The notes beneath the pieces were generated by a model that was given only the letters and a program-made list of their open reading frames with translations, did no database searches and was not told where the DNA came from. Shown piece by piece: positions 6,144-18,117 of a stretch of DNA of 64,000 nt (its first letter is position 1; every line of letters starts with the position of its first letter). The stretch comes from Nakamurella endophytica. Lineage in GTDB: Bacteria; Actinomycetota; Actinomycetes; Mycobacteriales; Nakamurellaceae. The position numbers and the translations under genes are program-made. The DNA lies in contig NZ_BMNA01000012.1 of assembly GCF_014646215.1 (NCBI RefSeq), positions 1-64,000 on the forward strand, read 5' to 3'.

Positions 6144-6197
6144 TGGTGGAGGACCCAGGAATCGAACCTGGCAAGGCGCCCCAGAGGCGCGTCCCCC
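6144..6197 (-). ncRNA. tRNA-like small RNA: acceptor stem, T-arm and encoded CCA, but no anticodon arm
   Basis: On the minus strand, 5' GGGGGAC (6197-6191) pairs with GTCCTCC (6154-6148), giving a 7-bp acceptor stem with a G3-U70 wobble. An A discriminator and CCA follow at 6147-6144. A canonical T-arm lies between (CCAGG, loop TTCGATT, CCTGG; 6171-6155). The usual D and anticodon arms are replaced by one hairpin, GCGCC/GGCGC with a 5-nt loop (6190-6176), and a CTTG linker. No alternative upstream 5' acceptor strand pairs, so this is not an ordinary cloverleaf. G3-U70 with A73 is the known AlaRS identity set and is also found in tmRNA. It may be a small alanylatable RNA or a decayed tRNA/tmRNA 3' end. 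The pairing is visible in the sequence; expression is untested. Confidence 0.5.
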
Positions 6198-6210
6198 GTG
6201 GGGTGCGCAT

Positions 6211-6239
6211 ACCGTAGATCACTCCCGCCGGTTTGTCAC
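6211..6239 (-). promoter_or_regulatory. Sigma70-type promoter for the tRNA-like element
   Basis: The minus strand reads GTGACA (6239-6234), a 17-nt spacer, then TACGGT (6216-6211). These match TTGACA and TANNNT with ideal spacing. The predicted transcription start falls about six bases before the 5' strand of the tRNA-like acceptor stem, leaving a short leader like those removed by RNase P. Confidence 0.45.
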
Positions 6240-6427: not shown

Positions 6428-7126
6428 ATGGCGGACCTCACCGCCCTGCACGAGGAACTGGCGCGCGTCGTCGTCGTCGGCCGCGACCTGTCCGTCGTGC
6501 TCACCGAGATCACCGGCATCGCGCGTCGTGCGATGCCCGGGGCGGAGGCCACGTCCATCACGCTGGTGCGCGGCGACGACGCCCACACCGCCGCCTTCGA
6601 CGGTCAGCTGGCCATCGACGCCGACGAGTTGCAGTACGAGCGCGGCCACGGACCGTGCCTGGACGCCGGGCGGGCCGGCCAGATCTTCGTCGTCGACGAC
6701 ATGCGGACCGAGCAACGCTGGCCGGACTACGCCCGGCACACGGCAGCGATCGGCGTACGCAGCTCGCTGTCCGTGCCGCTGCCCTTCCAGGACGCGGTGA
6801 TCGGCGCGGTGAACAACTACGCGACGCGTCCCGAGGCCTTCGGCGACACGGACGTCGAGTTCGGCCAGGAGGTCGCGTCCTGGGTGGCGCTCGCCGTCGG
6901 GCACGCCCGGCTGGGCGTGCAGGCCGGGCAGGACCTGGCCGGGATGCGGGCCGCCATGGCCTCCCGGGCCGTCATCGAGCAGGCCAAGGGCATCCTCATG
7001 GAGCGCAACGGGATCACCGCGGACGAGGCGTTCACCGTGCTCACCCGGGCTTCGCAGCGTGCCAACACCAAGCTGCGGGACGTAGCCCGGCAGCTGGTCT
7101 CCACCGGGACCCTGCCCGGGACCTGA
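6428..7126 (+). CDS. GAF-ANTAR antiterminator regulator
   Basis: A 232-residue cytoplasmic sensor. A GAF domain covers about residues 15-155, with the QYERGHGPCLDAGR motif typical of actinobacterial GAF-ANTAR proteins. A C-terminal ANTAR RNA-binding domain covers about 168-222 (RAVIEQAKGILMERNGITADEAFTVLTRASQRANTKLRDVA). ANTAR domains bind paired hexanucleotide-loop hairpins in nascent RNA and prevent termination. The ATG at 6428 is preferred because GGAGG lies 11 bases upstream; an ATG at 6410 lacks a ribosome site. It converges on a second GAF-ANTAR gene across a strong hairpin. Confidence 0.85.
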   Translation: MADLTALHEELARVVVVGRDLSVVLTEITGIARRAMPGAEATSITLVRGDDAHTAAFDGQLAIDADELQYERGHGPCLDAGRAGQIFVVDDMRTEQRWPDYARHTAAIGVRSSLSVPLPFQDAVIGAVNNYATRPEAFGDTDVEFGQEVASWVALAVGHARLGVQAGQDLAGMRAAMASRAVIEQAKGILMERNGITADEAFTVLTRASQRANTKLRDVARQLVSTGTLPGT

Positions 7127-7277: not shown

Positions 7278-7982
7278 TCAGTCGCTCGGTTCCACCGCCG
7301 GCGTCTCGCCGGTCTGCACCAGGCGGTCGGCGACATCGCGCAGCAGGACGTTGCTGCGCTGGGAGGCCAGCCGCAGCACGTCGAACGCCTGGTCGGCGGT
7401 CATCCGGTAGCGCTCCATCAGGATGCCCTGTGCCTGGCCGATGAGCGTGCGGGTCGCCAAGGCCGTGCGCAGGTTGTCCTCGGTCCTGGCGCTCTGCAGC
7501 GCGATCGCGGCCTGGGCGGCGAAGACCTGCCCCTCCTCGCGTCCCCGGTCGGCGAATCCGGCCGGGTGGGGCGAGTAGACGTTGAGCGCCCCGAGGGTGT
7601 CCTCGGACGTGAACAGCTGAAAGGACAGGCTGCTGCGAATCCCGGTCTCCTCGGCGACCCGGTGCGCCCAGCGGGGGTAGCGGTCCTCGTGCAGCAGGTC
7701 CCCGATCCCGAAGGTCTCCCGCTCCCAGATGGCATCCAGGCACGGGCCCTCGCCGAGCTCGTACTGCAGCTGGTCGGCGCGGGCCGCGCGGTCGTCGCTG
7801 CTCGCCGGCGTGTCCACCCGGCCCCGCTTGTGGACGATCGACACGCCGACGTAGGCGTCGTTGCCCAGGTGCTCCGCGGCCAGGTCCACCACCCGTTGCA
7901 GGGTGTGCTGCAGGTCCGGCTCCGCGGCGAGGTCGCGGGCGACGGTGGCGATCATCTCGCTGAACCGACGATCGTCGCTCAC
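7278..7982 (-). CDS. GAF-ANTAR antiterminator regulator (second copy)
   Basis: A 234-residue protein with the same layout as the converging gene. A GAF domain spans about residues 10-165, including QYELGEGPCLDAIWERE, and a C-terminal ANTAR domain about 170-225 (RTLIGQAQGILMERYRMTADQAFDVLRLASQRSNVLLRDVADRL). The two proteins are clearly paralogous in architecture but diverged along their length, so this is an old duplication or independent acquisition. The ATG at 7982 is followed at once by the helix leading into the GAF domain, and CTGAGGAGACC provides a ribosome site. Confidence 0.85.
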   Translation of the reverse strand: MSDDRRFSEMIATVARDLAAEPDLQHTLQRVVDLAAEHLGNDAYVGVSIVHKRGRVDTPASSDDRAARADQLQYELGEGPCLDAIWERETFGIGDLLHEDRYPRWAHRVAEETGIRSSLSFQLFTSEDTLGALNVYSPHPAGFADRGREEGQVFAAQAAIALQSARTEDNLRTALATRTLIGQAQGILMERYRMTADQAFDVLRLASQRSNVLLRDVADRLVQTGETPAVEPSD

Positions 7983-17217: not shown

Positions 17218-18117
17218 GTGCAGTTCCGCGATCTCGGTCCGTTGCGGGTCGAGAGTGACGGTGTCCCGCTCCGGATCGCCGGGCGGCGGTTGTCCACGCT
17301 GCTGGCGGTGCTGGTCGCCCACGCCGGTGACGCCGTCCCGGTGGACCGGCTGGTCGAGGCCACGTGGACCGGGTCGCCGCCGGTCCGCGCCGAGGCGGCG
17401 CTGGACTCGCTGCTGTGGCGGCTGCGCCGGATCCTGGACCCGGATCGGGAGGCGCGGGGACCGGGCGAGGTGCTGCGGACCGAGCCCGGTGGTTACCGGA
17501 TCGTGGCGGGTGACCGGGAGGTCGACTCCCGCGCCTTCGCCGCCGGAGCGGCCGGTTCGGCCTCGGCGCTGCGGGCCGGGGATCCCGGCGCGGCCCTGGA
17601 GGCGGCGGACCGCGCACTGGAGCGCTGGCGCGGGGTCCCGTTCGACGGCATCGCCGACGCGCCCTGGGTGGCCTCGGTCCGGCACCGGATGGACTCCGTC
17701 CGCCTGGACGTGCGCGAGACCCGGATCCAGGCACTGCTCGACCTCGGGCGTCCGGAGCAGGCGGCGTCCGACGTGCTGCCCCTCCTCCGCGACCATCCGT
17801 TCCGGGAGCGGTTGTGGGCACAGCGCATGCTCGGTCTCTACCGGGCCGGGCGGCAGGCCGACGCGCTTGCGACCTTCGCCGATGCCAGGGCCCTGCTCGC
17901 CGCGGAGCTGGGCGTACGACCGGGTCCGGAGTTGACCGGCGTGCACGCCGCCGTGCTGGCGCAGGACCCGGTGCTGCAGGGGTCGGGAGCGCAGGCCGTG
18001 GCGTCCGGCGGCGGGCTCGCCGGCCCTGTGCGCCTGCCGCCCCGGGTGGCCGGCTGTGGGGCCGCGACGACGATCTCGCGCACGTCCACGACCTGCTGGA
18101 CCGGGTCCCGATCGTGA
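17218..18117 (+). CDS. SARP-family regulator, N-terminal half (wHTH + BTAD), frameshifted
   Basis: This 299-codon frame carries an OmpR-type winged HTH (about residues 1-95, VQFRDLGPLRV to EPGGYRIV) and a bacterial transcriptional activator domain (about 100-250, with LRDHPFRERLWAQRMLGLYRAGRQADAL). This is the SARP arrangement that activates antibiotic and stress genes. The reading continues sensibly to about 18050 (RLPPRVAG) and then turns to nonsense before the TGA at 18115-18117. The expected NB-ARC domain continues one base back in another frame. GTG 17218 has GGAGG upstream and starts directly at the DNA-binding domain. Confidence 0.75.
   Translation: MQFRDLGPLRVESDGVPLRIAGRRLSTLLAVLVAHAGDAVPVDRLVEATWTGSPPVRAEAALDSLLWRLRRILDPDREARGPGEVLRTEPGGYRIVAGDREVDSRAFAAGAAGSASALRAGDPGAALEAADRALERWRGVPFDGIADAPWVASVRHRMDSVRLDVRETRIQALLDLGRPEQAASDVLPLLRDHPFRERLWAQRMLGLYRAGRQADALATFADARALLAAELGVRPGPELTGVHAAVLAQDPVLQGSGAQAVASGGGLAGPVRLPPRVAGCGAATTISRTSTTCWTGSRS

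Follow-up and report, generated by a model that had tools for sequence, protein, structure and literature searches.

Among the closest described systems, LysX of Mycobacterium, in which MprF is fused to LysRS, and the fungal ErdS, which combines AspRS with DUF2156, both join a dedicated synthetase to a lipid transferase of the DUF2156/LPG_synthase_C type (PMC9437257, PMC10580965), and both are described as using ordinary tRNA. In C. glutamicum, alaDAGS and pesT are present (PMC10580965), and actinobacterial MprF homologues produce Ala-DAG (PMC10580965, citing Smith et al. 2015); the C. glutamicum pesT gene encodes a putative esterase. A tRNA species reserved for non-ribosomal transfer is found in the staphylococcal tRNA-Gly used for the cell wall (PMC4052509). 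Those tRNAs are full-length molecules with anticodons. The tRNA-like domain of tmRNA represents the upper tRNA half, with G3-U70 and A73 and without an anticodon. As for the enzymes, the Tupanvirus mini-AlaRS and the 453-residue A. aeolicus AlaRS fragment (N453) consist of the aminoacylation part only and charge an acceptor-stem microhelix and a G3:U70 minihelix respectively (PMC10036535), and AcmF of ascamycin biosynthesis is a truncated AlaRS-like protein (PMC12945691) which has lost the ATP and alanine-activation residues as well as the Asp-plus-Asn reader of G3:U70.

In the system described here, whose RNA gene lies in the window (the whole 64-kb stretch of DNA that was analysed), a dedicated synthetase and an LPG_synthase_C lipid transferase are likewise found, but the synthetase is a separate AlaRS paralog and comes with a dedicated, anticodon-less RNA as its putative carrier. 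With the C. glutamicum AlaDAGS/PesT system of Ala-DAG/Ala-PG synthesis it has in common an MprF-family synthase, a pesT-named gene and alanine (PMC10580965, citing Smith et al. 2015), whereas no AlaRS paralog or mini-tRNA is mentioned in the relevant sections of PMC10580965 and orthology to the window-type genes is only presumed. Unlike the tmRNA domain, the RNA is free-standing and 54-56 nt long across its family, with no mRNA part, a D-loop-like hairpin and a different T-stem, and unlike the staphylococcal tRNA-Gly it is neither full-length nor provided with an anticodon. The paralog is probably paired with a natural mini-tRNA, which the Tupanvirus and A. aeolicus enzymes are not, and compared with AcmF it keeps the activation residues that were checked and mostly keeps the reader pair.

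The RNA gene of the window is 54 nt long and runs on the minus strand from its 5' end at 6197 to its 3' end at 6144. The 5' acceptor strand GGGGGAC (6191..6197, with G3 at 6195) pairs with GTCCTCC (6148..6154, with the U70 equivalent at 6150) to form a 7-bp stem containing G3-U70. Between the two strands, a single hairpin GCGC-CTCTGGG-GCGC (6176..6190) replaces both the D arm and the anticodon arm and is followed by CTTG and by the T-arm CCAGG-TTCGATT-CCTGG (6155..6171), while the discriminator A73 and an encoded CCA (6144..6147) complete the molecule. The first-pass annotation had proposed a tRNA-like RNA of this kind, lacking the anticodon arm, and this description held, except that its span of 6144-6239 has to be reduced to 6144-6197 and that the 5-bp hairpin it described, although indeed single, has 4 bp across the family.

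The predicted fold has an MFE of -29.1 kcal/mol (z -2.4). When both strands of the window were scanned for this architecture the 6144-6197 site was the sole match, and the same scan gave 2 matches in 60 random windows of equal composition. Against a covariance model of the family the window copy, which is among the model seeds, scores 80 bits (E 1e-15), and neither ARAGORN nor Rfam returned a tRNA match for it, even at a permissive E of up to 5. Considered as a tRNA (RF00005), the element meets the criterion of a 7-bp acceptor, a T-arm with a UUCRA loop, A73 and a CCA end but not that of a cloverleaf, given that the anticodon arm is missing; considered as a tmRNA (RF00023), in which a tRNA-like domain is joined to a tag-encoding mRNA part, it fails for want of any mRNA part. 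The criterion for an alanine-accepting RNA, G3-U70 with A73, is met, with G3-U70 present in 59 out of 59 sequences and A73 in every member collected. With its conservation in relatives the 54-nt element goes far beyond chance and is a real tRNA-like unit. Its alanine identity, which rests on G3-U70 and A73, is likely, charging itself being inferred from sequence alone with no aminoacylation data. A tRNA-Glu called by ARAGORN at 17501-17577 on the plus strand of the window has no Rfam support and is probably false.

Covariation was assessed on 59 distinct sequences, in which 99.9% of the cells are paired. Double-sided changes are found at six pairs, located in the hairpin and the T-stem, and amount to 77 double-change cells compared with 14.8 +/- 7.7 after shuffling, a value that none of 500 shuffles reached; moreover, sliding the pairing partners abolishes the signal. 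Three of the four hairpin pairs vary on both sides across the family (GCGC/GCGC, GCGT/ACGC, GCAC/GTGC), and the T-stem shows compensated variants among relatives such as CCAGG/CCTGG, TCAGG/CCTGA and ATACG/CGTAT. The 5' acceptor strand is invariant except at position 7 (U or C), and the acceptor stem displays no covariation beyond the change of U7-G66 to C7-G66. This invariance was partly imposed by the method, as most of the family sequences were gathered with an exact pattern fixing the acceptor, but covariance-model matches obtained without that filter keep G3-U70 too. In one genome (G942, locus L271 at 9973) the first base is U, so that U1 and C72 are mismatched at the tip of the acceptor stem while G3-U70 is kept. 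The first-pass annotation had named conservation of the 5' acceptor strand and hairpin in relatives, together with compensatory changes in both stems, as its check; the conservation was found, and the compensatory changes were seen in the hairpin and T-stem, with only the one acceptor change given above.

Across the family the hairpin has 4 bp and a loop of 7-8 nt, and in most members the last bases of this loop are UGGG or differ little from it. Since this UGGG loop faces the UUCRA T-loop, as in the D-loop/T-loop elbow, the hairpin likely resembles a D-arm more than an anticodon arm, a reading that rests on sequence comparison only. In four copies from family f51 (L058, L059, L061 and L263), which we take, as a guess, to be Microbacteriaceae, the T-loop reads UGCGA instead of UUCRA and the hairpin loop lacks the GG pair (UGAG or UCAAG). 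It is possible that these loops changed in step, suggesting a loop-loop contact, although one change within a single clade could account for it.

Upstream of the RNA on the same strand, a good -35-like hexamer GTGACA (6234..6239, 5 of 6 positions) and a weak -10-like hexamer TACGGT (6211..6216, 3 of 6) are separated by 17 nt and stop 13 nt upstream of the RNA 5' end, so that 6198-6239 represents promoter and leader, outside the RNA proper. The promoter pair with 17-nt spacing of the first-pass annotation was thereby confirmed, albeit with a weak -10. Furthermore, a TANNNT hexamer occurs 6-20 nt upstream in 52 of 109 copies, compared with 19, 8, 2 and 1 in test windows shifted upstream. On the 3' side, the 60 nt downstream of the RNA show a median fold z of -4.7 with 78% below -2, against a median of 0 and 6% in control stretches; terminator-like hairpins are thus usually present 3' of family members, while for the window copy, unlike most relatives, no clear terminator was found past the CCA. 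The CCA is encoded in 71 of the 109 copies and missing in the remainder, a situation common among tRNA genes and one that points to completion by the CCA-adding enzyme. Transcription from its own promoter is likely, expression being inferred without expression data.

A 111-nt query retrieved the element from five genomes of the same genus, among which similarity begins abruptly at G1 and stops at the CCA, with unrelated flanks. The covariance model search added a sixth relative within the genus (G009), two genomes from other families of the order (G187 and G135) and six more within the class. A pattern scan covering 84,980 species genomes then returned 99 loci. About 90 of these are genuine members of the family, belonging to Arthrobacter and other Micrococcaceae, Pseudonocardia, Williamsia, Gordonia, Rhodococcus and others. 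In total 109 copies with distinct flanks were collected, a set which may include duplicates where the same genome or a close strain was reached through two tools. The RNA is present in about a hundred actinobacterial genomes. Two copies per genome were observed in Gordonia desulfuricans (L090) and in Williamsia soli (L066, L121), one of the Williamsia soli copies having partner genes and the other not.

The weak covariance hits L037-L040 and L043-L052 were set aside; they mostly resemble coding sequence, and L047 and L051 look like tRNA-Ser. The pattern hits L092, L095, L118, L126, L131, L133, L148 and L158 were judged to be due to chance. Four records (L070, L078, L096 and L109), labelled as Vibrio cholerae, Kitasatospora, Acidobacteria and Sporosarcina, carry Arthrobacter- or Williamsia-like copies or flanks and are likely the result of contamination or mislabelling. 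At L044 (1501-1555, genome G266), a 55-nt stretch, GCCGCGTAAGCACCTGTTGGGCTTCACGTCAGGTTCGAGTCCTGGCGCGGCACGA, is followed by a strong hairpin; it could be a further tRNA-like unit without an anticodon, one whose acceptor differs, or else a tRNA remnant whose 5' part perhaps overlaps a gene end, both being possible.

Three genes recur within 8 kb of the RNA in many genomes and encode an AlaRS paralog, an MprF-family synthase and a PesT-like esterase. The paralog (PF01411, E 1e-110) has about 465 residues compared with 890-900 for the canonical enzyme, and contains the catalytic and tRNA-recognition domains only, stopping where canonical AlaRS continues. With scores of 359-381 against the NCBIfam alaS cut-off of 457 it does not meet the criterion for a full-length AlaRS with editing and C-Ala domains, but it does meet that for a class II AlaRS, as it keeps the Arg residues of motifs 2 and 3, the Asn of EI(G)N and the Asp that precedes motif 3. 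The roles of AlaRS residues are known in part from general work and also from PMC12945691. The paralogs form a separate clade with a support of 0.98, and in most of them the Asn and Asp at the positions of the G3:U70-reading pair are retained. The Asn is replaced in the Rhodococcus paralog and in two of Gordonia type, those of Gordonia desulfuricans and G135, as is the Asp in Rhodococcus and G135. The objection raised by these three replacements is tempered by the viral mini-AlaRS, which lacks the usual reading residues and still needs G3:U70 (PMC10036535).

The second neighbour matches LPG_synthase_C (DUF2156; PF09924) with E values of 1e-74 and 1e-76 in relatives and meets the criterion of the MprF/AlaDAGS system, LPG_synthase_C with a membrane domain, the membrane domain being recognised by eye and by weak matches only. 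The third is an esterase of PF00756, probably membrane-anchored. All four parts lie within 8 kb in Pseudonocardia, Williamsia, Gordonia and Rhodococcus (L065, L066, L068, L076, L084, L102, L113, L140 and L161), partial sets occur at other loci, and the distance between RNA and paralog is ~ 75-175 nt in f51, f52 and G011. In the window genome itself three of the parts are unlinked: the RNA is on contig C12, the paralog, an open frame with no stops, on C17 (19086-20462), and the LPG synthase, a 72% identical homologue, on a third contig (C8, 20513-21907). Next to the RNA in the window are two similar short proteins encoded convergently at 6431-7126 (plus strand) and 7278-7982 (minus strand), which we take by eye to be probably regulators of the GAF-ANTAR type. 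A plasmid-borne paralog was looked for and rejected, the only matches being below 60% identity and several of them annotated as canonical alaS.

Among 17 genomes of the own genus, 7 have the RNA; all of these 7 have the paralog, which G008 and G015 have in addition (Fisher p 0.002), and a close LPG orthologue (> 700 bits) is found in the 7 RNA-bearing genomes and G015 only. In a class sample of 395 genomes, 8 have the RNA, 8 have the paralog and 6 have both (p ~ 1.5e-10, not corrected for shared ancestry). In a sample of 366 genomes from the order of G569, the RNA occurs in 4 genomes that do not belong to family f18, all with the paralog ~ 100 nt away.

Exceptions are seen in both directions. 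Within family f18 of the same order sample, 15 RNA-bearing genomes have no paralog. In the Micrococcaceae type the RNA is present at about 55 loci without a paralog nearby, 21 such genomes that were searched have canonical AlaRS only, and an LPG match is missing in 3 of 17 searched. The RNA of Arthrobacter and relatives adjoins the mycothiol synthase gene mshD (TIGR03448) at about 56 loci (the Micrococcaceae loci within L063-L161), with a GlnR-like regulator on the other flank at one Arthrobacter-type locus that was examined. Conversely, six genomes (G008, G015, G408, G581, G703 and G799) have the paralog without a detectable RNA, and covariance scans at full sensitivity, together with a custom scan for the structure, revealed no diverged RNA near these paralogs. 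The two most divergent of them, in G703 and G799, are the deepest branches of the paralog tree, which suggests that the paralog may predate the RNA; that it is the older of the two is no more than a possibility.

Taken as a whole, the RNA likely (probability of about 0.7) serves tRNA-dependent lipid alanylation as a dedicated donor that does not decode and that receives its alanine from a mini-AlaRS of its own. Sequence, structure, covariation, distribution, gene neighbours and co-occurrence are shown, whereas expression, charging, transfer and product are inferred. According to this model, the gene encodes a free-standing upper half of tRNA-Ala, made of the acceptor stem, the T-arm and the D-arm-like hairpin, whose transcript would be made from its own promoter, trimmed and CCA-finished in the fashion of a tRNA. 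The ~465-residue AlaRS paralog would charge it with alanine, and the alanyl-RNA, being unable to decode, would have no role other than to supply alanine to a transferase that depends on aminoacyl-tRNA. Where a lineage has the full gene set, the MprF-family enzyme (LPG_synthase_C) that co-occurs with the RNA would most likely be this transferase; it would attach alanine to a glycerolipid of the membrane, either diacylglycerol or phosphatidylglycerol, and the PesT-like esterase would act on the alanyl-lipid, perhaps processing it. Such a separate carrier would keep lipid modification apart from protein synthesis. In line with the model, MprF1 accepts an alanyl minihelix (PMC4052509), and together with the AlaRS fragment, the viral mini-AlaRS, the Ala-DAG-producing MprF homologues, LysX and ErdS described above it lends plausibility to each of the inferred steps. 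The proposal of the first-pass annotation that the RNA is alanylatable but non-decoding is supported by the sequence tests, with charging inferred only, and of the regulator, donor and decoy roles that it listed the genome context favours the amino-acid donor.

Some observations speak against the donor reading. MprF enzymes can use full-length tRNA and a dedicated RNA is not strictly required; in addition, the RNA exists without the paralog in Micrococcaceae, the paralog exists without the RNA, and RNA, paralog and LPG synthase are on three contigs in the window genome. Because the RNA is kept in Micrococcaceae without the paralog, another acceptor is likely there; the ordinary AlaRS would charge the RNA and the acceptor would perhaps be a peptidoglycan bridge of the FemX type, which is a guess.

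In the rival reading that survives best, the alanylated RNA serves mainly peptidoglycan cross-bridges (FemX/FemAB) or another aminoacyl-tRNA-dependent enzyme, with lipid use lineage-specific or absent. In its favour are the retention of the RNA without the paralog in Micrococcaceae-type genomes, of which 18 were searched for FemAB (PF02388) and 16 have it, and the preference of Weissella FemX for Ala-tRNA, in which it reads G2-C71 (PMC4052509), a pair also present in the window RNA. However, the searches found no FemAB in the own-genus genomes that they covered, nor in most other paralog-bearing genomes, in which the LPG synthase is found instead; no FemAB gene was identified adjoining the RNA, and FemAB may be general in Micrococcaceae. 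We consider this rival unlikely. Somewhat less likely still is a regulator or decoy that would bind AlaRS, EF-Tu or another tRNA-binding protein without being a productive donor. The fact that the gene stands alone, has a promoter of its own and is in most cases followed by a terminator, the lack of an aminoacyl-tRNA synthetase nearby in Micrococcaceae, and the elbow formed by the UGGG loop and UUCRA T-loop, which would suit tRNA-binding proteins, are consistent with it, but the finding, at locus after locus, of a dedicated synthetase and an aminoacyl-lipid synthase near the RNA fits a donor better and the strict retention of A73 and G3-U70 would be less needed for a decoy.

A free tmRNA-like domain acting with SmpB on stalled ribosomes is very unlikely. 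The acceptor logic (G3-U70, A73 and a GGGGG start) does match that of the tmRNA of the genome, but there is no tag reading frame, the T-stem differs, an extra hairpin is present, a full tmRNA exists and the RNA is linked to lipid enzymes; a truncated tmRNA was ruled out, with the full tmRNA in the genome and different arms. The last alternative, also put forward by the first-pass annotation, is that the 3' end of a decayed tRNA or tmRNA, or what is left of an attachment site, pairs with its 5' side by coincidence, and although a T-arm with CCA is the typical leftover of an integrase att site, it is refuted and all but excluded, given that the whole 54-nt unit rather than its 3' part is conserved, that hairpin and T-stem covary, that the distribution of the element also speaks against it, that intact tmRNA and ordinary tRNA-Ala genes exist in the window genome, and that no integrase gene was identified among the RNA neighbours examined. 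A phage-borne element was ruled out as well, with no match in 2.9 million viral contigs.

There is no Rfam family for this RNA, and no report of it was found in the open-access literature searched, which excluded preprints and most subscription journals; prior publication is possible. To our knowledge, no other free-standing bacterial RNA gene represents only the acceptor-T-D half of a tRNA. A free-standing anticodon-less tRNA with its own synthetase seems likely to be a new kind of element, while the pathway it most likely serves is of a known kind, and the class, found in about a hundred genomes, has been missed by ARAGORN and Rfam. On a bolder reading, which we consider more likely than not, the mini-tRNA and the minimal AlaRS form an aminoacylation channel parallel to translation, feeding alanine to membrane lipids and possibly, by way of the ordinary AlaRS in Micrococcaceae, to peptidoglycan. 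The diversion of aminoacyl-tRNA from translation into lipid modification is a stated open question (PMC4052509), and, if the donor reading is true, a carrier which accepts alanine yet is unable to take part in decoding would directly answer it. It would also provide a natural pair of minihelix and minimal AlaRS, as models of tRNA and synthetase origin predict for early tRNA evolution.
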